Origin: an uncultured Bacilli bacterium
GTDB taxonomy: Bacteria; Bacillota_I; Bacilli_A; RF39; UBA660
NCBI GenBank assembly: GCA_944358675.1
Contig: CALVRN010000010.1
Coordinates: 1-37,705, forward strand
Length of the DNA: 37,705 bases
Direction: 5' to 3'
Below are positions 20,596 to 34,483 of the stretch, piece by piece. Position 1 is the stretch's first letter. Each line of letters starts with the position of its first letter. The notes below the pieces were generated by a model. It had not been told where the DNA came from, ran no database searches, and saw nothing but the letters and a program-made list of their open reading frames with translations. Position numbers and translations under genes: made by a program.

Positions 20596-20620
20596 CTAGG
20601 ATATTTTCCTAGTTATTTTA
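20588..20620. terminator. Strong bidirectional terminator between dipeptidase and nifJ
   Basis: TAAAATAACTAGGA (20588-20601) and TCCTAGTTATTTTA (20607-20620) form a perfect 14-bp stem with a 5-base loop, covering the stop codons of both convergent genes. T-rich on both strands. Confidence 0.85.
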
Positions 20621-23600
20621 CTAAACTCTTATAAAAATTAAATCTTCTCATAGCTTCTTCTTTATTAATTTTAAGCATCTCATCAGCTTGATTTGGATTA
20701 ACTGTCTTAAGCATACTATATCTAGTCTGACTATTTAAAAATTCATCATATAAACAAAAATCAGGATTTGGACTATCTAAAGAAAATTCATCACTAGTTC
20801 CATCATATCTAAATATTGGAAAATATCCACATTTAGTAGCTAAAGCTTCCTCCTCTACTGAACAGCCCATACCAGCTTTAATTCCATGAGATATACAAGG
20901 ACAATATGCTATTATAATAGAAGGTCCATCATGCTTAATAGCTTCATTAAAAGCCTTAATTGTCTGCATCATATTAGCTCCAAGTGAAACTTGTGCAACA
21001 TAAACATTCGGATAAGCCATAGCAATTCTAGCTAAATCTTTCTTATAATTTTTTTTGCCAGAAGCAGCAAACTCTGCTACCATTCCTTCAGGCGTTGCTT
21101 TAGAAGCTTGCCCACCAGTATTAGAATAAACTTCAGTATTAAGCACTAATATATTTATATTAGAACCACTTGAAAGTACATGATCTATACCTCCAAAACC
21201 TATATCATAAGCCCAGCCATCACCACCGACAGCCCAAACATTTTTAGCCACAATATAATTTTTATAATCTTTTAATTTATAATGTTTTTCAAAATCTATA
21301 TTTTCATATACCTCTTTAGTAATATTATAATCATTAGAATTTTCTAACCATTTATCAAATAATTCATCCCTATGATTTAACATATATTCTCTAACAAAAT
21401 TTTTACCTTGTTCATAGCCCATTAAAATACCATAACCAAATTCTGCATTATCTTCAAACAAACTGTTTACCCAAGGAATACTATATGGTGCATTAGGAAG
21501 CTCTCCTCCATAAATAGATGAACATCCAGTTGCATTTGCAATTACTAAATTATCATCTGAAAGTTGTGTAAGCAATTTAATATAAGCTGTCTCTCCACAT
21601 CCCGCACATGCTCCATGAAAAGCAAATTTAGGTTTTACCAATTGACTTCCTTTAATGGTTTCCTTTTTAAAATTATCTTTTTCAGAAACATTACTAACTA
21701 AATAATCAAACACCATATCATTCTTACTATCCTTAAGTTTTTGAAAAACTAATGCTTTATTTCCCCGCATACCCGGACAAGTATTTATACATACAGAGCA
21801 TCCAGTACAATTTTTAGCTGAAATAGCTATTACATAATAATAATCAGGGGCTCCAAGGGCCGGCTTACAAACTTCTTTAACATAATCAGGAGCTTTATCA
21901 TATTCATCTTTATTAAGTAAAAATGGTCTAATTACTCCATGTGGACAAACAAGTGAACACATACTACATTGTATACAGTTATCTTTAATCCATTTAGGTA
22001 CAAATTCTGCAATATTCTGCATCTCTGGTTCTCTATGTTCAAATGAACCATCTTCAAACCCTTCAAAATCAGAAACTTTTAAATCGTTGCCCTTTCTATG
22101 AGCTAAAGCTTCATAAACACTACCACTAGAAAATTCTAAAGGCTCTTCCATCTCATCCAATTTAATTTTTCTTAACTGAACATCTCTAATAGCTTTAATA
22201 TTATTTTCTGCAACCTCTTTACTCTTAACTCCAAATTTTCTCATAACATAATCTTCTAATTTTTTTGTTGCTTTTTCCTCACTAACCAAATCAGTTAATT
22301 TAAAAATAGCTTTTTCCATAATCATACTTATTTTCATACCTAAATGATATTTTCTTGCAATCTCATCTGCATCAATCACATAAACTTCAATATTTTTTTC
22401 TCTTAAAAATCTCTTATATGGATTTAAAGCATCTAATAAACTACCATCATCCATAGTTGTATTAATTAAAAGTTGACCACCATCCACTAAAGATGTAATT
22501 GCATCAAAAGTATTCAAATAAGTATCTTTAGAAATAACAACAAGTTCTGGATTATGAACAAAATAAGTTGACCTAATAGGTTTATCAGAAAATCTTAGAT
22601 GACTACAAGTAACTCCTCCAGATTTTTTAGAATCATATTCAAAATAACCTTGAACATGCATTTCATCACCAACAATACCAAGTAGCGACTTACTACAGCT
22701 CACCATTCCATCACTACCATAGCCATAAATTAAAACTTCTTTATTATCAGTAACATTAATGTTTTCATATTTCAAAGACAAATTAGTTACATCATCATCA
22801 ATACCAATCGTAAATTCAGATTTGGGATTATCAAGCATATCATAAACAGCTTTTATCATACCAGGTGTTACATCTTTACTAGATAAACCATAACGACCAT
22901 GACAAATATAAATATTCTTGTCCTTTAAACAACTCGCAACATCTAAATATAAAGGTTCTCCTTCACTTCCAGCCTCTTTAGTTCTATCAAGAACCGCAAT
23001 CTTCTGAACACTATCAGGTAAAACATCTAAAAAATACTTATCACTAAATGGTCTATATAAATGAACTTCTATAAGTCCAATTTCATCACCTAAATAATCA
23101 ATAACTTCCTTAATGGTCTCACAAACAGAACCCATAGCTATAATTACTTTTTTAGCATTCAAACTACCATAATAATTAAAAGGTTTATAATTAGTTCCTG
23201 CAAGTTTATTTATATTAGTCATATAATCATTTACTATATCAGAAACCACATCATAAAACTTATTTCTAGATTCAGTCTCTTGAAAATAAATATCCCCATT
23301 TTGATTAGTACCTCTAGTAACTGGATATTCATTATTTAAAGCTCTTTTTCTAAATTTTTCTAACTCCTCATAAGGAATTAATTCTTTTACCTCTTCATCT
23401 TCTAAAATACTAATCTTATTAAGTTCATGACTAGTTCTAAAACCATCAAAAAAATGTAAAAATGGTAAAGATGCTTTTATACTAGACAAATGACTAACCA
23501 AGGCTAAATTATATGCATCTTGAACAGAAGAAGAGGCCATCATACAAAAACCCGTACTACGAGTCGCATACACATCTTGATGATCACCAAAAATACTTAA

Positions 23601-23954
23601 AGCATGTGTTGCTAATGACCTTGCAGCTACATGCATAACAAATGGCCACATTTCACCTGCTATCTTATACATATTTGGAATCATTAAAAGTAACCCTTGA
23701 CTGGCAGTATAAGTAGTTGCTAAAACACCTGTTTGCAAAACCCCGTGTACCAAACCAATAGCTCCTGCTTCACTTTGCATTTCTATAACTTTAGGTATTT
23801 CTCCAAATATATTCTTTTTACCTTTTCCTGACCACCTATCAATTAATTCAGGCATTGGACTTGAAGGTGTAATCGGATAAATTCCTGCAATCTCCGTAAA
23901 CAAATATGAAGCTCGCGCACATGCTTCATTACCATCACATGTTATTTTTTTCAT
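20613..23954 (-). CDS. nifJ: Pyruvate:ferredoxin (flavodoxin) oxidoreductase
   Basis: 1113 residues as one fused polypeptide, slightly short of the usual 1170-1200. It oxidises pyruvate with CoA to acetyl-CoA and CO2, passing electrons to ferredoxin. Domain I opens ITCDGNEACARASYLFTE with the YPITPSSPMPE stretch. Two 4Fe-4S ferredoxin motifs lie in the middle, CIQCSMCSLVCP and CTGCSVCINTCPG. The thiamine pyrophosphate domain contains HGACAGCGETAY, GGDGWAYDIGFGG and NTEVYSNTGGQASKATP. The gene starts 13 bases after the rpe-prepilin gene with an AGGGAGG ribosome-binding site, so it is likely on the same transcript. It indicates anaerobic pyruvate metabolism. Confidence 0.96.
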   Translation of the reverse strand: MKKITCDGNEACARASYLFTEIAGIYPITPSSPMPELIDRWSGKGKKNIFGEIPKVIEMQSEAGAIGLVHGVLQTGVLATTYTASQGLLLMIPNMYKIAGEMWPFVMHVAARSLATHALSIFGDHQDVYATRSTGFCMMASSSVQDAYNLALVSHLSSIKASLPFLHFFDGFRTSHELNKISILEDEEVKELIPYEELEKFRKRALNNEYPVTRGTNQNGDIYFQETESRNKFYDVVSDIVNDYMTNINKLAGTNYKPFNYYGSLNAKKVIIAMGSVCETIKEVIDYLGDEIGLIEVHLYRPFSDKYFLDVLPDSVQKIAVLDRTKEAGSEGEPLYLDVASCLKDKNIYICHGRYGLSSKDVTPGMIKAVYDMLDNPKSEFTIGIDDDVTNLSLKYENINVTDNKEVLIYGYGSDGMVSCSKSLLGIVGDEMHVQGYFEYDSKKSGGVTCSHLRFSDKPIRSTYFVHNPELVVISKDTYLNTFDAITSLVDGGQLLINTTMDDGSLLDALNPYKRFLREKNIEVYVIDADEIARKYHLGMKISMIMEKAIFKLTDLVSEEKATKKLEDYVMRKFGVKSKEVAENNIKAIRDVQLRKIKLDEMEEPLEFSSGSVYEALAHRKGNDLKVSDFEGFEDGSFEHREPEMQNIAEFVPKWIKDNCIQCSMCSLVCPHGVIRPFLLNKDEYDKAPDYVKEVCKPALGAPDYYYVIAISAKNCTGCSVCINTCPGMRGNKALVFQKLKDSKNDMVFDYLVSNVSEKDNFKKETIKGSQLVKPKFAFHGACAGCGETAYIKLLTQLSDDNLVIANATGCSSIYGGELPNAPYSIPWVNSLFEDNAEFGYGILMGYEQGKNFVREYMLNHRDELFDKWLENSNDYNITKEVYENIDFEKHYKLKDYKNYIVAKNVWAVGGDGWAYDIGFGGIDHVLSSGSNINILVLNTEVYSNTGGQASKATPEGMVAEFAASGKKNYKKDLARIAMAYPNVYVAQVSLGANMMQTIKAFNEAIKHDGPSIIIAYCPCISHGIKAGMGCSVEEEALATKCGYFPIFRYDGTSDEFSLDSPNPDFCLYDEFLNSQTRYSMLKTVNPNQADEMLKINKEEAMRRFNFYKSLVK

Positions 23955-23967
23955 TCAAATAACCTCC

Positions 23968-25011
23968 CTATCGATGACAAGCCTCATCGCTATCACCATA
24001 TATAACAGTATAATCAAAATCACTACCATTAGTTGTTGTAACTTTAATAGAAACACCAGCAGATGAATCCACATATGGTTTATCAGTCATCGGATTAATC
24101 ATTTCATTATCAATATAACCATTTTTAATTCCTAAAGAACTATCACCATCTTGAAGTTGATTTACACTGATTGTAAATGATGAACTAGAGGATTTAGGTA
24201 AAAGCTCGGGATGATCAATCATCACCATTTTAGCTCCTTCGATTAAATTAGTTTCTTGAACCTTACAACTATTATATCTACTTTTTTTCATGCTATTATC
24301 AATTGCAGTTACTGCCACCAAGCCTAAAATACTTAAAACAACAATAACACCTAAAAGTTCAGCTAAAGTAAAGCCATTTCTCAAACTTTTCTTTAATTTA
24401 TAAATTTGGCTTTGATAATTATCACTGTCTGTAACAAAAGAACCAACAACTACTATATCAACATCTTTCACTATTTTAATAGTAGTATCATTAATTCCAC
24501 CATCAACCTCAATCATATAAGACAAATTATTATCATCACGATACTTAATTAATCTATCAATTTTATAAGTAATATCAATAAATGGTTGTCCACTCGCACC
24601 AGCTTGAACACTCATTATTAATACCATATCTATATCAGATAAATAAGGTAAAATTTCATCAACCTTTGTATTAGGATTAATTGCAATACCTACTTTAGAA
24701 CCTTTAGAATGAATATAATTTATATATTCTAAAGGATTATCGCAAGCTTCCAAATGAAAAGTTATATAACTAGGTTTAAAAGGAATAACTGCATCAACAT
24801 ACTTTTCAATATTCTCAACCATCAAATGTACATCAAACGGTTTTTTTAAACTACAAATTGCCTCTTTCATTTTATTCAAAGAAAGAGTTGGTTTTTCTGT
24901 AAATTTACCATCCATAACATCAAAATGTATAAAATCACAAACACTATCCAATTTTTTAATTTTTTCAAAATCATTTTGGATTTTTAAAAATGATCCAGCA
25001 ATCTTTACCAT
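23968..25011 (-). CDS. rpe: Ribulose-phosphate 3-epimerase fused to a type IV prepilin domain
   Basis: 347 residues with two unrelated parts. Residues 1-210 are a full-length Rpe TIM barrel: the metal/catalytic HFDVMDG near 29-34, VHLMV (H62), ITFHLEA (H86), SGQPF and VDGGIN (D170). It ends DNYQSQIYKLKKSL, where free-standing Rpe proteins stop. Residues 211-347 are a complete prepilin-like domain. RNGFTLAELLGVIVVLSIL has the canonical processing site G213/F214 with Glu at +5 and one hydrophobic helix, then a soluble, disulphide-capable C-terminal region. No stop lies between the parts. The only plausible internal start is TTG at 24384, without a good ribosome-binding site. Rpe next to rsgA matches Bacillus synteny; a pilin there does not. 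Confidence 0.85.
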   Translation of the reverse strand: MVKIAGSFLKIQNDFEKIKKLDSVCDFIHFDVMDGKFTEKPTLSLNKMKEAICSLKKPFDVHLMVENIEKYVDAVIPFKPSYITFHLEACDNPLEYINYIHSKGSKVGIAINPNTKVDEILPYLSDIDMVLIMSVQAGASGQPFIDITYKIDRLIKYRDDNNLSYMIEVDGGINDTTIKIVKDVDIVVVGSFVTDSDNYQSQIYKLKKSLRNGFTLAELLGVIVVLSILGLVAVTAIDNSMKKSRYNSCKVQETNLIEGAKMVMIDHPELLPKSSSSSFTISVNQLQDGDSSLGIKNGYIDNEMINPMTDKPYVDSSAGVSIKVTTTNGSDFDYTVIYGDSDEACHR

Positions 25012-25022
25012 TAATAGTCACC

Positions 25023-25850
25023 TCATTTTAAAAAATTTAAATAATTATCATATCTACTTTTCAAAATTGTTCCATCCATAACCTTTTCTTTGACCTTGCA
25101 TTTTTTCTCATGAACATGAAAGCAATCTCTAAATTGACACTCATCTCTGTATAAATTAAATTCCACAAAATTATCACGAATATCTTCTTTACTCATACCT
25201 GTAAATTCCAAAGCTGAAAATCCAGGAGTATCTGCAACTAATCCATCACATAACTCGTGAAGTTCTGTATGTCTTGTTGTATGTTTACCTCTATTTAAAG
25301 CAAGTGATATTTCTCCAGTTTTTAAATTTAATTCTGGATTAATTTTATTTAAAAGTGTACTTTTCCCAGCTCCACTTTGACCAGTAAACACACATACATT
25401 ACCCTTAAAAATTTTTTTAATATTAGAAATATCATCATTCATATAAACTTCATAACCAATTTTTCTATAATAATCAATCACAAGTTTTATATTTTTTAAT
25501 TCTTCCTCATCAAGTAAATCTGCTTTTGTAAAAACAATAACCGGTTTTATTCTATTGTATTCACATATAACTAAAAATTTATCAAGTAAATTAGATGAAA
25601 AATCAGGTTTTTTTAAACTAGTAATAATTACCGCAATATCAACATTAGAAATAACTGGTCTTATAAGTTCGTTTTTTCTAGGTAAAACATTTAAAATATA
25701 TTTATTTTTCTCATCAAAATCAACTTCATCACCAACAATTGGAGAAAGGCCCATGTTTCTAAATTTACCACGGGCTTTACACACATATTCACTATCTAAA
25801 GTTTTAACTGTATAATCATTACTAATTAATTTTATTATCTTACCCTTCAC
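25023..25850 (-). CDS. rsgA: Small ribosomal subunit biogenesis GTPase RsgA
   Basis: 275 residues from the chosen GTG at 25850, which gives VKGKIIKLISNDYTV and matches the Bacillus CpgA N-terminus. Longer upstream reading frames would start at poor codons and overlap prkC by 60 bases. An OB-fold domain (about 1-65) leads into the circularly permuted GTPase: G4 FTKAD, G1 GQSGAGKSTLL and G3 DTPGF, with the switch stretch RGKHTTRH between them. The C-terminal zinc site is CQFRDCFHVHEKKC. The protein matures the 30S subunit; in Bacillus it is also a PrkC substrate. It overlaps the prkC stop by 11 bases, so translation may be coupled. Confidence 0.93.
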   Translation of the reverse strand: MKGKIIKLISNDYTVKTLDSEYVCKARGKFRNMGLSPIVGDEVDFDEKNKYILNVLPRKNELIRPVISNVDIAVIITSLKKPDFSSNLLDKFLVICEYNRIKPVIVFTKADLLDEEELKNIKLVIDYYRKIGYEVYMNDDISNIKKIFKGNVCVFTGQSGAGKSTLLNKINPELNLKTGEISLALNRGKHTTRHTELHELCDGLVADTPGFSALEFTGMSKEDIRDNFVEFNLYRDECQFRDCFHVHEKKCKVKEKVMDGTILKSRYDNYLNFLK

Positions 25851-27552
25851 TTTGAGTATCTCCAGTATCTGTAATATCTGTTGGCTCAGGATTCTTAACA
25901 ATTTTAATTCTCAAATTAGCACCTTTACTAACCTTAGAACCAGCAGCCATATTTTGATAAACAATAGCGCCATTTTCACTTTGAATATCTTGAACTTCTG
26001 TAACATTCAAAGTAATACCATTTTCATCACAGAATTTTTGAACATCCTCTCTTGTATAAGTTCCATCAGTAAAATTAGGATAACTAACATAAATATTCGG
26101 AATAGTAAATGTAATTGTATCTCCTTCACCTAATTTAGTTCCAACCTCTACATCTTGTTCTAATATGGTTCCTTCTTCAACATTTTCATCTTTAGAAACA
26201 TCCTTTTCATAACTTACAACATTAATACCAGCAGCTTCAAGCTCAGCTTTAACCTTCTCAAAATCTTCTCCAGTATAATCTTCAATTTCTATTTTCTCAG
26301 AACCAGTAGAAACAATAAGAGTTATTTCTGAACCCTCTTTTAAGGTTTCACCAATTTCTGGATCAGTTCCAATAACTTTATCCTCTTCTACATCATCACT
26401 AGCTTCTTTTTTGGTCTTACCACTAACCTCAAATCCTTTATCTTCTAAAGTACTTCTTGCCTGCTTAACAGTCATACCTTGAACATCCGGTATTTCAATA
26501 TCTGGTTTATCAGAAATCTTTGGCCATAAGATAAAGACAAATAATAATGCGGCTATTAAAACTCCTACTATTGTTCCAATTACAATTAAAGCCCTATTCA
26601 TTCTTTTATCTTTTTTATCTTCACTCTTTTCAGCATTTCTAATAGCTCTACCAACTCTAGGTATATCATTATCATCATCAAACCCTTTTTCTGGATATCT
26701 ATATTTAACCCTTGGTTCATTAAATCTATCTTTATCCAAAGCAGTTTCTAAATCTTCATGCATATCCCAAGCAGAATCATAACGATTCTTCGGGTTTTTA
26801 GCAGATGCTCTTAAAATAATGTTTTCAATAGATTGTGGCATTTCAGGATCATATTCACAAATGCTAGGTATTTCCTCATTCATATGTTTAATTGCTACTT
26901 CTACAGGATTATCTCCTTTAAAAGGAACATGACCTGTCACAAGTTCATACATCAAAATACCAAGTGAATATATATCACTTTTAGTAGTTGCTGAAGCACC
27001 ATTAGCTTGCTCAGGCGGAATATAATAAACAGTTCCCATTACACTATTAGTTTGTGTAAATTCTCCAGCATTTAAAGCCACCGCAATACCAAAGTCCATT
27101 ATCTTAACTCTTCCATCTTCTAAGATAATAACATTTTGTGGTTTAATATCTCTATGAATAATATAACTTTCATGTGCGTGAGCTACCGCACTAGTAAGCT
27201 GAAGCATAATATCTTGAACTTCTGGCAAAGTTAAACTTCCTCTTTTTTTAATTAATTGTTTTAAGGTTAAACCTTGAACATATTCCATAACAATAAAATA
27301 TTTACCATCATCTTCTCCAACATCGTAAACTTCAACAATATTAGGATCATTTAAAGAACTAGCTGAAATAGCTTCTCTTTGAAAACGTCTAACAAACTTT
27401 TCATCCTCAGCTAAATCTCCCCTTAATATTTTAACTGCAACTTTTCTATCTAAAATAGTATCCTGAGCTAAATAAACATTAGCCATTCCACCTTCACCAA
27501 TAGATCTAATAATTTCATAACGATCATTAATCATTTGTCCCCTTGTTATCAT
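25840..27552 (-). CDS. prkC: PASTA-domain Ser/Thr protein kinase PrkC/Stk1
   Basis: 570 residues. The N-terminal Hanks-type kinase has the glycine loop GEGGMANVYLA, catalytic Lys41, HRD at 133-135 and DFG at 153-155. A basic juxtamembrane region precedes the single helix at about 321-343 (ALIVIGTIVGVLIAALLFVF). The outside part carries three PASTA domains, about 351-416, 420-485 and 488-553, which in this family bind peptidoglycan fragments or lipid II. It senses cell-wall state and phosphorylates division, wall and dormancy-exit targets. ATG overlaps the prpC stop by 4 bases (ATGA), with GGAGG upstream. Its partner phosphatase is the adjacent gene. Confidence 0.96.
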   Translation of the reverse strand: MITRGQMINDRYEIIRSIGEGGMANVYLAQDTILDRKVAVKILRGDLAEDEKFVRRFQREAISASSLNDPNIVEVYDVGEDDGKYFIVMEYVQGLTLKQLIKKRGSLTLPEVQDIMLQLTSAVAHAHESYIIHRDIKPQNVIILEDGRVKIMDFGIAVALNAGEFTQTNSVMGTVYYIPPEQANGASATTKSDIYSLGILMYELVTGHVPFKGDNPVEVAIKHMNEEIPSICEYDPEMPQSIENIILRASAKNPKNRYDSAWDMHEDLETALDKDRFNEPRVKYRYPEKGFDDDNDIPRVGRAIRNAEKSEDKKDKRMNRALIVIGTIVGVLIAALLFVFILWPKISDKPDIEIPDVQGMTVKQARSTLEDKGFEVSGKTKKEASDDVEEDKVIGTDPEIGETLKEGSEITLIVSTGSEKIEIEDYTGEDFEKVKAELEAAGINVVSYEKDVSKDENVEEGTILEQDVEVGTKLGEGDTITFTIPNIYVSYPNFTDGTYTREDVQKFCDENGITLNVTEVQDIQSENGAIVYQNMAAGSKVSKGANLRIKIVKNPEPTDITDTGDTQSEG

Positions 27553-28286
27553 TCAATTTCCTCCTTTTGTAAATAAGCAACCGAGATATTATCTGTACCT
27601 CCACGATTATTTGCTTTATTAATTAATTTCTGCACTTTCGCATCTATATCTATATCACTATTTAAAACTGTTTCAATTTGGTTATTATCAAGCATATTAG
27701 TAAGTCCATCACTACAAAGTAATATTCCGCTAACATCTCTTTCCACATCAAATACATCCATCTCAACCGATATATTAGCACCTAATGCCCTCATCAAAAC
27801 ATTTTTTCTCGGATGATCCTTTGCTTCCTCTTCAGTAATTTCTCCAGATTTCACAAGCAAATTAACCAAAGTATGATCATTAGTTATTTTATATAATTTA
27901 TTATCTTTAATTACAAAACCTGAAGAATCACCAATATTTCCAAAAAGCAAAAACTCTTTAGTCAAAAGTGCCATTACAATAGTTGTACCCATACCAACAC
28001 TTTCAGGATTATTCTCAGTATATTTATAAAGTAACATATTAGCTTCACTAACAATTTCCTTTAAAAAATTAATCGCATCTTCTTTATTACCAACAGAAGA
28101 AGTATCGACAAATCTTTTACCAATATGAGTTATCGCAATTGATGAAGCAATCTCACCACCTTTATGACCACCCATACCATCAGCTACTGCCATAAGTATT
28201 TCACCTGCAGCATTTTTAACAATTGTCACACTATCTTCATTATGATCTCTGACCTGGCCAGGATCGGTTAAATATGAAAATTCCAT
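27549..28286 (-). CDS. prpC: PP2C-family Ser/Thr phosphatase PrpC/Stp
   Basis: 245 residues, standard for the family. The metal-binding motifs are clear: RDHNEDS near the N-terminus, AVADGMGGHKGGE, GNIGDSSGFV, LLCSDGLTNML and GGTDNIS near the end. It dephosphorylates proteins phosphorylated by PrkC; the kinase gene follows with a 4-base overlap. The start shares a base with the rlmN stop (TAATG), so the three genes are tightly coupled, in the same order as in Bacillus. Confidence 0.95.
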   Translation of the reverse strand: MEFSYLTDPGQVRDHNEDSVTIVKNAAGEILMAVADGMGGHKGGEIASSIAITHIGKRFVDTSSVGNKEDAINFLKEIVSEANMLLYKYTENNPESVGMGTTIVMALLTKEFLLFGNIGDSSGFVIKDNKLYKITNDHTLVNLLVKSGEITEEEAKDHPRKNVLMRALGANISVEMDVFDVERDVSGILLCSDGLTNMLDNNQIETVLNSDIDIDAKVQKLINKANNRGGTDNISVAYLQKEEIE

Positions 28287-29308
28287 TATTTTCCCTCCTC
28301 AAAGTTACTACGTAACTGCCCACAAGCTGCACTTACTTCACTACCGAACTCCTTGCGCACCGTCACATTTATTTTATTTTTCTTAAGTATATCATAAAAT
28401 CTCATTATTTTATCTCTATCAGTCTTTTTAAACTCTATATGACTTGTTTCATTATAAGGTATCAAATTGACATAAGCCGTTAATCCTTTTAATAAATTAG
28501 CAAGTTCCAAAGCACATTCATCGCCGTCATTCACATCTTTAAGCATAATATATTCAAAAGTAATCTTTCTATGATTTTCTTTTAAATAATCTCGAACCGC
28601 CTTCATTACTTCTTTTAAAGGATATACCTTATTAATCTTCATTATCTTATTTCTAATCTCATCATTAGGAGCATGCAGACTAATAGCTAAATTAACCTGT
28701 CTTTTTTCTTTTGTAAATTCTCTTATTTTAGGAACAATCCCGCAAGTTGATACCGTAATATGTCTAGCTCCTATAGCTATACCATGATCATCATTTATAA
28801 TATCAATAAATTTCATTACATTATCATAATTATCAAATGGCTCGCCAATACCCATCAAAACAACATGAGAAATTCTAATTTTTTGAATCTCTTCCACTAT
28901 TAATATTTGACTAACCATCTCATAAGTCTCTAAATTTCTAACTTTTTTAAGCCTACCACTTTCACAAAACCCGCATCCCATATTACAGCCAACTTGCGTT
29001 GAAACACATAAACTGTTGCCATAATCATGATTCATAAGTACTGCTTCAATCTTATTGCCATCCTCAAGTTCAAATAAATACTTATGAACATTTTTTCCAT
29101 TTTGAACTTTCAAAATATTAAGCTTATTTATACTAAAATCTTCTTTTAATTTTTCTATAACTAACTTCTTAACATTAGTCATCTCATCAAATGAATTAAC
29201 CCTTTTCTTATAAAGCCAATCATATACCTGAATAGCTTTAAACTTTTTTTCACCAATTAAAGTAAAATAAGTTTCTAAATCTTTAAGGGTTTTGCCATAT
29301 ATGTTCAT
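28286..29308 (-). CDS. rlmN: Dual-specificity RNA methyltransferase RlmN
   Basis: 340 residues from the ATG at 29308 (MNIYGKTLKDLETYF). An in-frame extension of 19 codons upstream is rejected because it runs through the conserved repeat carrying the terminator and promoter, and because AAGGTGGTC sits before this ATG. It is a radical-SAM enzyme that methylates C2 of A2503 in 23S rRNA and A37 of some tRNAs. The cluster is CNMGCGFC (CX3CX2C). Further conserved stretches are LMGIGEPFDNYDNV, SLHAPND, NLIPYN and a C-terminal Cys in VSAACGQL that takes part in catalysis. It heads the rlmN-prpC-prkC-rsgA-rpe run. Confidence 0.94.
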   Translation of the reverse strand: MNIYGKTLKDLETYFTLIGEKKFKAIQVYDWLYKKRVNSFDEMTNVKKLVIEKLKEDFSINKLNILKVQNGKNVHKYLFELEDGNKIEAVLMNHDYGNSLCVSTQVGCNMGCGFCESGRLKKVRNLETYEMVSQILIVEEIQKIRISHVVLMGIGEPFDNYDNVMKFIDIINDDHGIAIGARHITVSTCGIVPKIREFTKEKRQVNLAISLHAPNDEIRNKIMKINKVYPLKEVMKAVRDYLKENHRKITFEYIMLKDVNDGDECALELANLLKGLTAYVNLIPYNETSHIEFKKTDRDKIMRFYDILKKNKINVTVRKEFGSEVSAACGQLRSNFEEGK

Positions 29309-29327
29309 ATTGACCACCTTACCTTTA

Positions 29328-29333
29328 ATTATA
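29328..29333 (-). promoter_or_regulatory. -10 element of the rlmN promoter inside repeat copy A
   Basis: TATAAT preceded by TGG (extended -10, TGNTATAAT) on the minus strand, 19 bases upstream of the rlmN start. The -35 position falls in the terminator's T tract and has no clear consensus, as expected for an extended -10 promoter. Confidence 0.55.
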
Positions 29334-29342
29334 CCAAATTCC

Positions 29343-29396
29343 AAAAAAAAATAACAGAACCCCATTATATTTTTATTATAAGTTCCATTATTTTTT
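29343..29396 (-). terminator. Terminator after the first repeat-protein gene (repeat copy A)
   Basis: A 15-bp stem between 29382-29396 and 29346-29360, with two G-U pairs on the minus-strand RNA and a roughly 21-base loop, followed by T residues. Confidence 0.7.
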
Positions 29397-29509
29397 AACT
29401 AAAAACCTTCTATTTGACAATATATTTACCTATTTTTTATATCATAATCTCCAAATCCAATACAACTACTTATTAATATTTATAACATTTTTCTAACTTT
29501 TAAGAAAAA

Positions 29510-31744
29510 TTATTTAAAATGTTTACCCTTATATTCATTTTGATTTTCCCCATTATAATTATCCATTTCTTGAGCTAAATCTTCTAACAATCTATTCTTT
29601 GTCTCTTCTGTAAAATATTTAGCATTTACTATTTTCTCTTTCTCATTAGATAAATATTTTTCATTCTTGCTATCACTATTTTTTAAAATATGCTTTTTAA
29701 AATACTTTTCTGGATGGACTTCTATTTCTTCTATTATATTATCAGGCGCTAGCACTCTTTCTAAAGAAATATTTTCAGGTAATACTAAACCTTCAGCACT
29801 TGTTAAACTACTTAAATCAATGTATCCTCCTACTTTTTGCGGCAATACTAACCCTTTAGCACTGGTTAATCTAATTAACCTAAGGTCTCCTCCTACTGTT
29901 TCTGGCAATTTTAACCCTTCGGCACTTTTTAACCCATCTAAGTAAAGACTTCTTCCTACCATTTTTGGAAATTTTAACCCTTCGGCACTTGTTAAACCCC
30001 TTAAATAAAGGAATCCACCAATTGTCTCTGGTAACTTTAACCCTTCCGCACTTGTTAAACCACTTAAATCAAGAGTTCCTTCTACTGTTTGCGGTAATTC
30101 TAATCCTTTAGCACTTTTTAAACCACTTAAATCAAGAATTCCTTCTACTGTTTGCGGTAATTCTAATCCTTCAGCACTGGTTAATCTCCATAAATAAAGG
30201 TCTCCACCAATTGTCTCTGGTAACTCTAATCCTTCAGCACTTGTTAAACCATCTAAGTAAAGACTTCTTCCTACCATTTTTGGAAATTTTAAACCTTTGG
30301 CACTGGTTAACTTTCTTAAATAAAGATTTCCTCCAACTATTTCTGGTAATTTTACACCATCACCATTTGTTAACTCATAAAAATAAAGGTCTCCTACTAC
30401 AATTTCTGGTAATTTTAAACCTTTAGCACTGGTTAAATGACTTAAATTAATAAAACCATAATGAACTTTTTTCCCTTCTATCTCTTTTAAATCTCTCATG
30501 TTTTCTCCAATGCTAACTTCATCTTCAATACAATTAAATATTTGTGCTATATCTTGTTTTATATTTCTCTTACTTTTTATCTCTTCTATTCTAGGATCTT
30601 TATCATAACCAAAGCCTTCTATTTGATCATCTATCTCGTATAAAAATCGAAGTTCCTCTTTTGTTAATTCAAAGCCCTTTTGTACTTTATTATCTATTGT
30701 TGTTAAAAGCTGCATGTCATATTCTTTTTTCTTGTATTTATCCCTATCAGGAAACTCTTCTAGTTTCTTATCTAATATAGGCATCATTTCTACTTCCATA
30801 TTCTGATTTTCAGCTATTCCCCTAATCTCCCCTATTGTATCATGCCCATCCATTCTAATTGCTATTCTAGGAATCTTTGCCTCACCATTTTCATCAAATG
30901 TATAGTAAACATAAAAATCGCCATTTTCAAGCTGCCCTTTCGCAAAGTTCTCTCCAGCCGCTGTACACCATCCCGTATAATATCCTTGCAGGCTATCTCT
31001 TAATATATGATAATCTGATCCTTGTTCATACTTAACCCATTTTCCTTCAGTTGAACTATGTTTTTTCTCACCTTTGTGCATTATCGTTTTAATAGAATAC
31101 TCATATAAAGTTTTAAAATTTCCGCTACCTAAAGCACTTCTTATCTCATCATCACCTTTTCTATCCTTTATATAATCTTCCATTAATTTTAAAGTTGTAA
31201 ATATAGCTTCTCTTTCAACTGGTGGGAATGGATATACTGTATGTTTATCTCTTTTAGAAAATTTACCTGTTTCTTTATTAAATTTACCTAATTGTTGTAA
31301 TCCTTGAAATACCCAATATTTTTCCCACATCTCATAACTTTTACTCTCTTCATCAAATAAAAAATATTCTATCCATTTATCTAATGATTCTTCTTGGTCT
31401 TCAATTATTCGCTTGGTTAATATCTGCTTGCGCTCAGAAGTTATTTCTATATCTCCATATCCTCGTTCTCTCATTATTTGTTTTTCGTGTTCAAAATAAC
31501 TATCCGGTATATCTTCTGGCTTTATAACATATAACTTGTGATAAAAACTCTTAAGTAATTTTAAATCACTTTCTCTTCTACTTGCCGCAACCTTTTGATG
31601 AACTCTTTCTAATCTATCAAAATAATTAAGTATTCTATCTCTTTTTTTATCAGACTCTTTACTGCTATGCATAACCCTATCTGACATATGTAAATCCTTA
31701 TAAAGTTTAGTAATAATATCTATCCACATATTTCTCTCATCCAT
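29510..31744 (-). CDS. Repeat protein 1: conserved N-terminal domain plus 21-residue leucine-rich repeats
   Basis: 744 residues; I do not recognise a named function. Residues 1-430 form a conserved, mainly helical and charged domain. Its best-ordered part (about 235-325) contains TGWCTAAGENF (W259, C260), GDFYVYY, IPRIAIRMDGHD and EIRGIAENQN. The order Cys, small-hydrophobic strand, Arg, RG, NQN resembles the PcfJ-like proteins of phages and plasmids, but only loosely. Residues 432-656 are about 11 copies of a 21-residue unit, L-x-L-x-x-LTSAEGL-x-LP-x-x-V-x-G. An 88-residue charged tail follows. No signal peptide or membrane segment, so probably cytosolic. Start: the ATG at 31744 behind AGGAGG. 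Roughly 94% identical (hand count) to repeat protein 2 over the first 393 residues. Confidence 0.8.
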   Translation of the reverse strand: MDERNMWIDIITKLYKDLHMSDRVMHSSKESDKKRDRILNYFDRLERVHQKVAASRRESDLKLLKSFYHKLYVIKPEDIPDSYFEHEKQIMRERGYGDIEITSERKQILTKRIIEDQEESLDKWIEYFLFDEESKSYEMWEKYWVFQGLQQLGKFNKETGKFSKRDKHTVYPFPPVEREAIFTTLKLMEDYIKDRKGDDEIRSALGSGNFKTLYEYSIKTIMHKGEKKHSSTEGKWVKYEQGSDYHILRDSLQGYYTGWCTAAGENFAKGQLENGDFYVYYTFDENGEAKIPRIAIRMDGHDTIGEIRGIAENQNMEVEMMPILDKKLEEFPDRDKYKKKEYDMQLLTTIDNKVQKGFELTKEELRFLYEIDDQIEGFGYDKDPRIEEIKSKRNIKQDIAQIFNCIEDEVSIGENMRDLKEIEGKKVHYGFINLSHLTSAKGLKLPEIVVGDLYFYELTNGDGVKLPEIVGGNLYLRKLTSAKGLKFPKMVGRSLYLDGLTSAEGLELPETIGGDLYLWRLTSAEGLELPQTVEGILDLSGLKSAKGLELPQTVEGTLDLSGLTSAEGLKLPETIGGFLYLRGLTSAEGLKFPKMVGRSLYLDGLKSAEGLKLPETVGGDLRLIRLTSAKGLVLPQKVGGYIDLSSLTSAEGLVLPENISLERVLAPDNIIEEIEVHPEKYFKKHILKNSDSKNEKYLSNEKEKIVNAKYFTEETKNRLLEDLAQEMDNYNGENQNEYKGKHFK
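29777..30451 (-). repeat. Tandem 63-bp coding repeats in repeat protein 1
   Basis: About 10.7 head-to-tail 63-bp units encoding the 21-residue repeat. Individual units resemble one another to very different degrees: the pair at residues 474-515 recurs almost unchanged about five units later (GLKFPKMVGRSLYLDGL), which suggests duplication of multi-unit blocks. Confidence 0.85.
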
Positions 31745-31890: not shown

Positions 31891-34143
31891 TTATCTAAAA
31901 TGTCTACCCGTAAATTCACTAGAATTTTTATCTTCTTTCTTATCATTTTGCATATAATTCCTATAATGTTTCTCTGGATAATTTTCTATTTCTTTTATTA
32001 TATTATAAGGTGCAATTAAAGCATCTAATAAAAAATTTTCCGGCAAGACTAACCCTTCGGCACTTGTTAATCCCCTTAAATCAAGATCTCCTCCTATTGT
32101 TTGTGGCAATTCTAACCCTTCAGCACTTGTTAAATTATATAAATAAATGTCAGATTCTACTGTTTGCGGTAATTTCAAACCTTCAGCACTTGTTAACCTA
32201 TCTAAATCAAGGCTATCTCCTACTGTTTGTGGTAATTCTAACCCTTCAGCACTTGTTAAACCACTTAAATCAAGAGTTCCTTCTACTATTTGAGGCAACT
32301 TTAATCCTTCAGCACTTGTTAAATTTCTTAAAATAAGGTCCCCTCCTACTGTTTGAGGTAATTCTAACCCTTCAGCACTTGTTAAACCACTTAAATTAAG
32401 ATCCTCTCCTACTGTTTGTGGTAATTTTAACCCTTCGGCACTTGTTAAACCACTTAAATCAAGAGTTCCTTCTACTGTTTGCGGTAATTCTAATCCTTTA
32501 GCATTTGTTAAACCACCTAAATTAAGATCCTCTCCTACTGTTTGAGGTAACTTTAATCCTTCAGCACTTGTTAAACTTCTTAAAATAAGGTTTCCTCCTA
32601 CTGTTTGTGGCAATTTTAATCCCTCAGCACTTGTTAAACCCCATAATATAAGGTTTCCTCCTACTATTTGTGGTAATTCTAACCCTTCAGCACTTATTAA
32701 ATCATCTAAATCAAGATAATCTTCTATTGCTTGTGGTAAATCTAATCCTAGGGCAATTATAAAATCCCCTAATTCAAGAGACCCTCTTACTATTTGTGGT
32801 AATTTTAAACCTTTCCCTTTAAAATCAGAAAATGATGTTAATCTAATATTTCCACAATGCACAACCTTATCTTTAAGTTTACTTATATTAGAAGCATTAA
32901 TATCACCTATACTAATATCATCTTTTCCACAGCCAAATATAAACGACAAGTCCTGTACCAAATCTCTTTTACTTTTTATCTCTTCTATTCTAGGATCTTT
33001 ATCATAACCAAAGCCTTCAATTTTACCATCTATTTCATATAAAAATCGAAGTTCCTCTTTTGTTAATTCAAAGCCCTTTTGTACTTTATTATCTATTGTT
33101 GTTAAAAGCTGCATGTCATATTCTTTTTTCTTGTATTTATCCCTATCAGGAAACTCTTCTAGTTTCTTATCTAATATAGGCATCATTTCTGCTTCCATAT
33201 TCTGATTTTCAGCTATTCCTCTAATCTCCCCTATTGTATCATGCCCATCCATTCTAATTGCTATTCTAGGAATCTTTGCCTCACCATTTTCATCAAGTGA
33301 ATAATATACATAAAAATCGCCATTTTCAAGCTGTCCTTTCGCAAAATTCTCTCCAGCTGCTGTACACCAGCCTGTATAATATCCTTGCAGGCTATCTCTT
33401 AATATATTATAATCTGATCCTTGTTCATACTTAACCCATTTTCCTTCAGTTGAACTATGTTTCTTCTCACCTTTGTGCATTATCATTTTAATAGAATACT
33501 CATATAAAGTTTTAAAGTTTCCGCTACCTAAAGCACTTCTTATCTCTGCATCGCCCTTTCTATCCTTTATATAATCTTCCATTAATTTTAAAGTTGTAAA
33601 TATAGCTTCTCTTTCAACTGGTGGGAATGGATATACTGTATGTTTATCTCTTTTAGAAAACTTACCTGTTTCCTTATTAAATTTACCTAATTGTTGTAAT
33701 CCTTGAAATACCCAGTATTTTTCCCACATCTCATAACTTTTACTTTCTTCATCGAATAAAAAATATTCTATCCATCTGTCTAATGATTCTTCTTGATCTT
33801 CAATTATCTGTTTTACTAATATTTCTTTCCTCTCTGAAGTTATTTCAATATTTCCATATCCTCTTTCTCTCATTATTTGTTTTTCGTGTTCAAAATAACT
33901 ATCCGGTATATCTTCTGGTTTTATAACATAAAGATTATGATAAAAATTTTTAAGTCTCTTTAAATCTTCTGGATTTTTACTTTGAGCTACTTTTTGATGT
34001 ACCCTTTCTAACCTTTCAAAATAATTAAGTATTCTATCTCTTTTTTTATCAGACTCTTTACTACTATGCATTACTCTATCTGATGTATGAAGATCTTTAT
34101 AAAGTTTAGTTATTATATCTATCCACATATTTCTCTCATCCAT
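31891..34143 (-). CDS. Repeat protein 2: paralogue with the same N-terminal domain and a longer repeat array
   Basis: 750 residues from the ATG at 34143, which aligns with the start of repeat protein 1 (MDERNMWIDIITKLY). The reading frame extends 19 codons further upstream, but that stretch translates the terminator/promoter repeat and is rejected. The N-terminal domain is nearly identical to the paralogue through residue 393, including TGWCTAAGENF, GDFYVYY and AENQN, then diverges abruptly just before the repeats. Residues 433-701 hold about 13 units of the 21-residue repeat (mostly LTSAEGLKLPQTVGG-type), with degenerate first units. A shorter tail of 49 residues ends in GRHFR, against GKHFK in the paralogue. 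Function unknown; leucine-rich-repeat-like binding surface inferred. Confidence 0.8.
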   Translation of the reverse strand: MDERNMWIDIITKLYKDLHTSDRVMHSSKESDKKRDRILNYFERLERVHQKVAQSKNPEDLKRLKNFYHNLYVIKPEDIPDSYFEHEKQIMRERGYGNIEITSERKEILVKQIIEDQEESLDRWIEYFLFDEESKSYEMWEKYWVFQGLQQLGKFNKETGKFSKRDKHTVYPFPPVEREAIFTTLKLMEDYIKDRKGDAEIRSALGSGNFKTLYEYSIKMIMHKGEKKHSSTEGKWVKYEQGSDYNILRDSLQGYYTGWCTAAGENFAKGQLENGDFYVYYSLDENGEAKIPRIAIRMDGHDTIGEIRGIAENQNMEAEMMPILDKKLEEFPDRDKYKKKEYDMQLLTTIDNKVQKGFELTKEELRFLYEIDGKIEGFGYDKDPRIEEIKSKRDLVQDLSFIFGCGKDDISIGDINASNISKLKDKVVHCGNIRLTSFSDFKGKGLKLPQIVRGSLELGDFIIALGLDLPQAIEDYLDLDDLISAEGLELPQIVGGNLILWGLTSAEGLKLPQTVGGNLILRSLTSAEGLKLPQTVGEDLNLGGLTNAKGLELPQTVEGTLDLSGLTSAEGLKLPQTVGEDLNLSGLTSAEGLELPQTVGGDLILRNLTSAEGLKLPQIVEGTLDLSGLTSAEGLELPQTVGDSLDLDRLTSAEGLKLPQTVESDIYLYNLTSAEGLELPQTIGGDLDLRGLTSAEGLVLPENFLLDALIAPYNIIKEIENYPEKHYRNYMQNDKKEDKNSSEFTGRHFR
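32041..32847 (-). repeat. Tandem 63-bp coding repeats in repeat protein 2
   Basis: About 12.8 units of 63 bp. The inner units are more uniform than those of repeat protein 1, and the first two units are degraded (one is 23 residues). Several nucleotide blocks recur nearly verbatim within the array and between the two genes. Confidence 0.85.
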
Positions 34144-34162
34144 ATGAAACACCTTACCTTTA

Positions 34163-34168
34163 ATTATA
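34163..34168 (-). promoter_or_regulatory. -10 element for repeat protein 2 inside copy B
   Basis: Extended -10 TGGTATAAT on the minus strand, 19 bases before the start codon, the same layout as at rlmN. Confidence 0.55.
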
Positions 34169-34177
34169 CCAAATTCC

Positions 34178-34231
34178 AAAAAAAAATAACAGAACCCCAT
34201 TATATTTTTATTATAAGTTCCATTATTTTTT
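34178..34231 (-). terminator. Terminator after secG (copy B)
   Basis: Same 15-bp hairpin with two G-U pairs and T tract as in copy A, about 35 bases past the secG stop. Confidence 0.7.
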
Positions 34232-34264
34232 AACTAAAAACCTTCTATTTGACAATATATTTAC

Positions 34265-34483
34265 CTATTTTATAAAATTCATTGCAATACATATAGCAAA
34301 AAATATTACACCTAAAATAGCAGTTAATCTAGTAATGAATAACTCTCCGCCTCTTTCTTTACGGTTTGCGAATAATTCATCATTACCACCCATAATGTTA
34401 CTATCAGGGCTTACTGCTTTACCACTTTGTAAAAGCACAATCGCAATTAATAAAATAGATACAATAATTAAAAGTATTTCCAT
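34265..34483 (-). CDS. secG: Preprotein translocase subunit SecG
   Basis: 72 residues, normal length. It has two membrane helices (MEILLIIVSILLIAIVLLQ and ITRLTAILGVIFFAICIAM). The linking loop carries the family pattern: LLQSGKA, then a glycine-rich segment (SNIMGGNDELFA) and an RKERGGELFITR turn. SecG assists SecYE in protein export. The ribosome-binding site is GGAGGG. It follows rpoZ after a terminator and is the gene immediately upstream of the repeat-protein cassette. Confidence 0.93.
   Translation of the reverse strand: MEILLIIVSILLIAIVLLQSGKAVSPDSNIMGGNDELFANRKERGGELFITRLTAILGVIFFAICIAMNFIK

Follow-up and report, generated by a model that had tools for sequence, protein, structure and literature searches.

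The open reading frame at 23968-25011 of the window (the whole 37,705-nucleotide stretch of contig CALVRN010000010.1, from an uncultured Bacilli bacterium, that was analysed) is a genuine in-frame fusion of a complete ribulose-phosphate 3-epimerase (Rpe) to a prepilin. The best explanation, to which a probability of roughly 0.75 is given, is that the Rpe part acts as a 213-residue cytoplasmic leader that is removed by the prepilin peptidase; this cleavage is inferred and no protein-level data support it so far. Three possibilities had been raised from the letters of the window alone: a real fusion released by the peptidase, a start at an internal TTG codon, and a recent deletion joining two genes. 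The first of these is the best supported, the cleavage again being an inference.

In Pfam, one and the same protein matched Ribul_P_3_epim (PF00834) over residues 8-193 (E 4.5e-47) and N_methyl (PF07963) over residues 211-233, both above the curated cut-offs, and in NCBIfam it matched the Rpe subfamily model NF004076 as well as the prepilin model TIGR02532, again above cut-off. The junction reads YKLKKSLRNG/FTLAELLGVIVVLSILGLVAVTAID. In the AlphaFold2 model of the whole chain (mean pLDDT 92.9) a full Rpe barrel is followed by an end helix (199-210), a break (211-215), a 51-residue helix (216-266) and a small head. Residues 1-213 of the model align with solved Rpe structures (best Z 32.5, rmsd 1.4 over 212 residues). 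The structure search with the pilin part alone gave only weak matches (best Z 5.0, rmsd 4.0 over 109 residues), 13 of its 19 rows being type IV pilins or pseudopilins, and Foldseek returned no match for this part at E 0.001, which is not evidence against a pilin fold. Coordinates of the features are collected in Table 1.

Table 1. Features of the fusion gene and its neighbours, in positions of the window.
Feature	Position	Strand	Remark
rpe-prepilin fusion gene, 347 aa	23968..25011	minus	one open frame, ATG to TAG
Rpe domain, proposed leader, residues 1-213, ending at Gly -1	24373..25011	minus	PF00834, match to solved Rpe, motifs kept
Predicted prepilin peptidase cleavage site G213/F214	24370..24375	minus	motif kept in 24/24; break in the model at 211-215
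Glu +5 of the mature pilin (E218)	24358..24360	minus	no exception among the aligned fused proteins
Prepilin N-terminal motif N_methyl, residues 211-233, with hydrophobic helix	24313..24381	minus	profile matches
Mature pilin part, residues 214-347: helix 216-266 and small head, Cys249 and Cys345	23971..24372	minus	
In-frame TTG (Leu210), start suggested earlier, not supported	24382..24384	minus	no ribosome-binding site
rsgA	25023..25901	minus	upstream neighbour; precedes rpe in the genus loci examined
por, pyruvate:ferredoxin oxidoreductase-like gene	20613..23954	minus	neighbour downstream of the pilin

The Rpe half has the full fold and the conserved catalytic motifs expected of the enzyme. 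Among the features that define a type IV prepilin, the small residue at -1 and the Glu at +5 are present, and the long N-terminal helix with a globular head is found in the predicted model, its structural ranking being weak. Another one, an N-terminal motif behind a short leader, is lacking, as the motif begins at residue 211. The part following the predicted cut is a pilin by sequence definition, while the precursor is not a classical prepilin.

The locus was compared across the genus, with one genome for each of 44 species. A full-length fused frame without a stop was present in 24 species, the window species included, whereas separate rpe and pilin genes occupied the same place in 19; in the last one (G060) the locus ends at a contig edge. 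The assignment of a full-length Rpe and a prepilin to one frame, made in the sequence-only reading, is thus borne out by Pfam, NCBIfam, the structure model and these 24 species. The search for the fusion in related genomes, which had been proposed as a check, found it in 23 other species of the genus, and the situation that would have refuted it, namely that all relatives have separate genes, does not obtain. In 43 of the 44 genomes the copy at this locus is the sole Rpe that was found. The rsgA-rpe context was recognised correctly: rsgA is upstream both in the window and in the genus loci examined, and almost every locus of sufficient length has the order rsgA-rpe-pilin-por. In other genera of the family the genes after rpe are mostly different. 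No Rpe-pilin fusion from elsewhere in the class was among the matches listed for 395 evenly drawn genomes, and no plasmid record covers 80% of the query.

Other arrangements were observed in some relatives. In genome G140 (L148/L087), which belongs to a different genus, there are four tandem separate prepilin genes, the first of them 67 nt downstream of rpe, with N-termini near-identical to each other. In three separate-gene relatives (L033 of G034, L064 of G059 and L029 of G016) the rpe-linked pilin frame is far longer, the shortest having 191 residues and the longest at least 486. The frames resemble modular pilins, and two or three of them continue up to the end of the retrieved sequence. 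Elsewhere in the window a 134-nt direct repeat (97% identical; 29306-29439 and 34141-34274) is situated upstream of two unrelated genes, an rlmN-like ORF (28286-29365) and a repeat protein (31891-34200), both of which take the same apparent N-terminus, MGFCYFFLEFGIIKGKV, from it; the repeat is probably a copied upstream region. Two paralogues are encoded in tandem at 29510-31744 and 31891-34200, and both contain many repeats of 63 nt (21 residues), of the type LTSAEGLELPQTVGGDLDL.

The cleavage site read from the window, G213/F214 with Glu at +5, is conserved throughout: each of the 24 fused proteins has G (A in one species) at -1 followed by FTLAEL. The Rpe motifs H-x-D-x-x-D-G, D-x-H-L-M and E-x-D-G-G are likewise present in 24 of 24. 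Counted from the conserved GS, the Rpe tail has 20-26 residues up to the cut in the fused proteins versus 17-23 in the separate ones, and since these lengths are similar, cutting at the site would release a near-normal Rpe. In close fused pairs the dN/dS values were 0.12-0.28 for Rpe, 0.09-0.30 for the pilin and 0.05-0.16 for its first 28 residues; they were obtained with a simple counting method, and in some pairs the synonymous changes are near saturation. On these estimates the Rpe half and the pilin half alike are under purifying selection. Since no other Rpe was found in 43 of the 44 genomes, the fused copy should be the working enzyme, although its epimerase activity is inferred only from its being the sole Rpe found.

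In the proposed mechanism, the housekeeping Rpe would occupy, within one chain, the position that a short leader has in other type IV prepilins. The Rpe half would fold in the cytoplasm, and the hydrophobic helix, with positive residues (KLKKSLRN) ahead of it, would insert in the membrane so that the pilin head is outside. The prepilin peptidase, with its active site facing the cytoplasm, would then cut after G213, which would free an Rpe of normal length into the cytosol and leave a mature pilin fit for a type IV filament. Membrane insertion, cleavage and the activity of both products are inferred. Class III leaders stay cytoplasmic, vary in length and end with Gly or Ala, and the prepilin peptidase has its active site on the cytoplasmic side and requires no other protein (PMC10191384; PMC6497953). 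Since leader and active site are both cytoplasmic, an enzyme in the place of the leader would be on the correct side of the membrane.

The search for a prepilin peptidase and an assembly ATPase elsewhere in the genome, also proposed beforehand, was successful, as peptidase, PilC and PilB were all found in the genome of the window. Its peptidase (L166:2048-2863) matches PF06750 and PF01478, lies directly after pilC and, as read from the translation, has two CxxC pairs and a GGGD motif. The PilC-type platform protein (L166:346-2091, contig C1) was observed to have about 170 extra N-terminal residues before the family match. On another contig a PilB/GspE-type ATPase gene lies with more prepilin genes; the genome also has a separate Tad-type locus, and 12 prepilin motifs were counted in it. 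Only the presence of the genes is observed; cleavage and methylation of the fusion by the peptidase and filament assembly by PilB and PilC are inferred. In the genus, the peptidase domain PF01478 (Peptidase_A24) was found in 42 of 44 species, among them every fusion-bearing one, and had no match in one high-quality separate-gene species and one incomplete species. Genome G013, where a Peptidase_A24 match was absent, is 92% complete and has 14 prepilin motifs and a separate rpe-pilin pair.

Several points speak against the removal of Rpe as a leader. The leaders of three S. sanguinis minor pilins are short (8-18 aa; PMC6497953), those of other pilins being longer, and the work on plasmid R64, as far as it is related where PMC6497953 cites it, indicated that the whole prepilin sequence mattered for processing. 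That a folded 23-kDa leader near the membrane would be accepted by the peptidase is not supported by any data, and this too counts against it. The main alternative is that the chain remains uncut, or mostly so, and that the pilin helix is a permanent anchor holding Rpe at the inner face of the membrane, with the head outside. A single chain with one hydrophobic helix would insert in just that way, and the action of the peptidase on the fusion has not been shown. However, an anchor alone has no need of Gly/Ala at -1 or of Glu at +5, and all 24 fused proteins retain the two; no part is more constrained than the first 28 pilin residues, the peptidase is there in each fusion-bearing genome, and in 19 sister species the same pilin is a normal stand-alone prepilin. 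A permanent anchor is therefore considered unlikely, without being excluded.

Less still can be said for the translation of the pilin from an internal start, which would yield two proteins and make the fused frame incidental. The genus does offer some ground for it: G023, G026 and G065, all of them fused, retain an in-frame ATG 3-5 codons before the site together with AAGG or AGGAG, and the fused G001 retains the ATG. In these four the pilin is likely to have dual expression, judging from the start signals alone; in G023, G026 and G065 it may be made both ways, and these three look like intermediates. In all 19 separate species an ATG lies 2-6 codons ahead of the site with a Shine-Dalgarno-like sequence of at least 4 bases, and 53 further prepilins from the genus served as a control, their nearest ATG being 3-9 codons before it. 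In the window's clade, however, an ATG with a ribosome-binding site before the pilin was found in none of the 16 fused species, and 8 of the 16 have no ATG, GTG or TTG within 24 codons of the site. The TTG suggested as a start in the sequence-only reading had to be given up, since only 4 of the clade's 16 fused species have TTG at this codon, most fused relatives having TTA, CTA or CTT instead, and no ribosome-binding site accompanies it. Thus an internal start is very improbable for the window; in its clade the pilin has lost its own start, and the best reading is that a single chain is made.

It is hardly credible that the pilin half is a decaying remnant attached to an essential enzyme: Rpe might tolerate a C-terminal tail, but the pilin dN/dS in close fused pairs is that of a constrained sequence, the signal motif is invariant, the frames are open in 24 species and neither stops nor frameshifts occur in the pilin half of the relatives. 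An error of assembly or sequencing, for which only the state of the window genome speaks (45 contigs, 1.2 Mb, 85% complete), is refuted by the recurrence of the same type of junction in 24 separately assembled species.

The separate genes indicate how the fused state could have originated. In 18 of the 19 separate species the start of the pilin overlaps the stop of rpe, by 4 nt (ATGA), 8 nt (ATGAATAA) or, once, 16 nt; the other one has an 81-nt gap. With overlaps such as ATGA or ATGAATAA, a small insertion or deletion would therefore suffice to join the two frames. A tree independent of the fusion was built from the locus neighbours RsgA and Por. On this tree the fused label requires at least 5 changes, and 0% of 200 bootstrap trees allow one. 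Among constrained RsgA+Por trees, a single clade of all fused species was rejected (p-AU 9.7e-07), as was a clade of the seven fused species of the second group (p-AU 1.2e-05). The number of changes by itself does not separate gains from reversals. Since the junctions differ between groups (LKKALRNG, LKALFQKG, LRGIFMNKG, LKKALG, LKEVFTG, LKSKA and LKNYMKG), several independent fusions are favoured over repeated reversals, although this remains an inference. The fusion in the window's clade is common to 16 species whose proteins differ at 30-40% of positions, and since species so diverged all carry it, it is old. The recent deletion at a shared KKSL-type sequence that had been considered for the window is therefore wrong. 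The joining of two neighbouring genes is upheld in so far as the neighbours were the source, but they were overlapping genes (ATGA or ATGAATAA) and were not joined via a shared sequence.

The fusion resembles type IV prepilins (PF07963, TIGR02532) in its Gly at -1, Phe at +1, Glu at +5, hydrophobic helix and small head, and in the peptidase, PilC and PilB of the genome, and differs from them in that its leader would be a whole 213-residue enzyme, not a short hydrophilic peptide. Like other Rpe proteins (PF00834; solved structure 2fli) it has the full barrel, the catalytic motifs and the rsgA-rpe order; unlike them, it has no stop codon there and runs on into a prepilin. A pilin joined to another functional module is known from the modular pilins PilB and PilC of Streptococcus sanguinis (PMC8179133, PMC6497953). 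In those, however, the added module sits at the C-terminus and is displayed on the pilus, whereas the module of the fusion sits at the N-terminus, in the cytoplasm, and its removal is expected. In another genus of the family, Rpe likewise has an in-frame C-terminal extension (L146 of G174 and L147 of G298; 338-339 aa), but the partner is DMP19-like (PF14300), without a prepilin site, and is not expected to be cut. The C-terminus of Rpe seems open to fusion in this family.

No description of an Rpe-prepilin fusion, or of a polyprotein resolved by prepilin peptidase, was found in the literature searched. A peptidase-resolved fusion, so far deduced from genomes only, would give bacteria a new means of accommodating a gene fusion. 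We regard it as rather doubtful that the polyprotein is favoured and not merely tolerated, an idea that takes in its repeated origin and retention, a 1:1 coupling of Rpe release to pilin supply, and a peptidase that would be needed for central metabolism.

Confirmed cleavage would mean that polyproteins can be resolved by the prepilin peptidase and that a folded enzyme is able to take the part of a prepilin leader. Joining a soluble enzyme to a membrane subunit would otherwise be harmful, and cleavage would account for how such a fusion can be neutral and so arise repeatedly. Pilin finders and annotation that expect an N-terminal motif would name such genes simply Rpe, and the pilin would be missed. 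Since the genus holds separate, fused-with-internal-start and fused-without-start forms side by side, the evolutionary path is directly testable.
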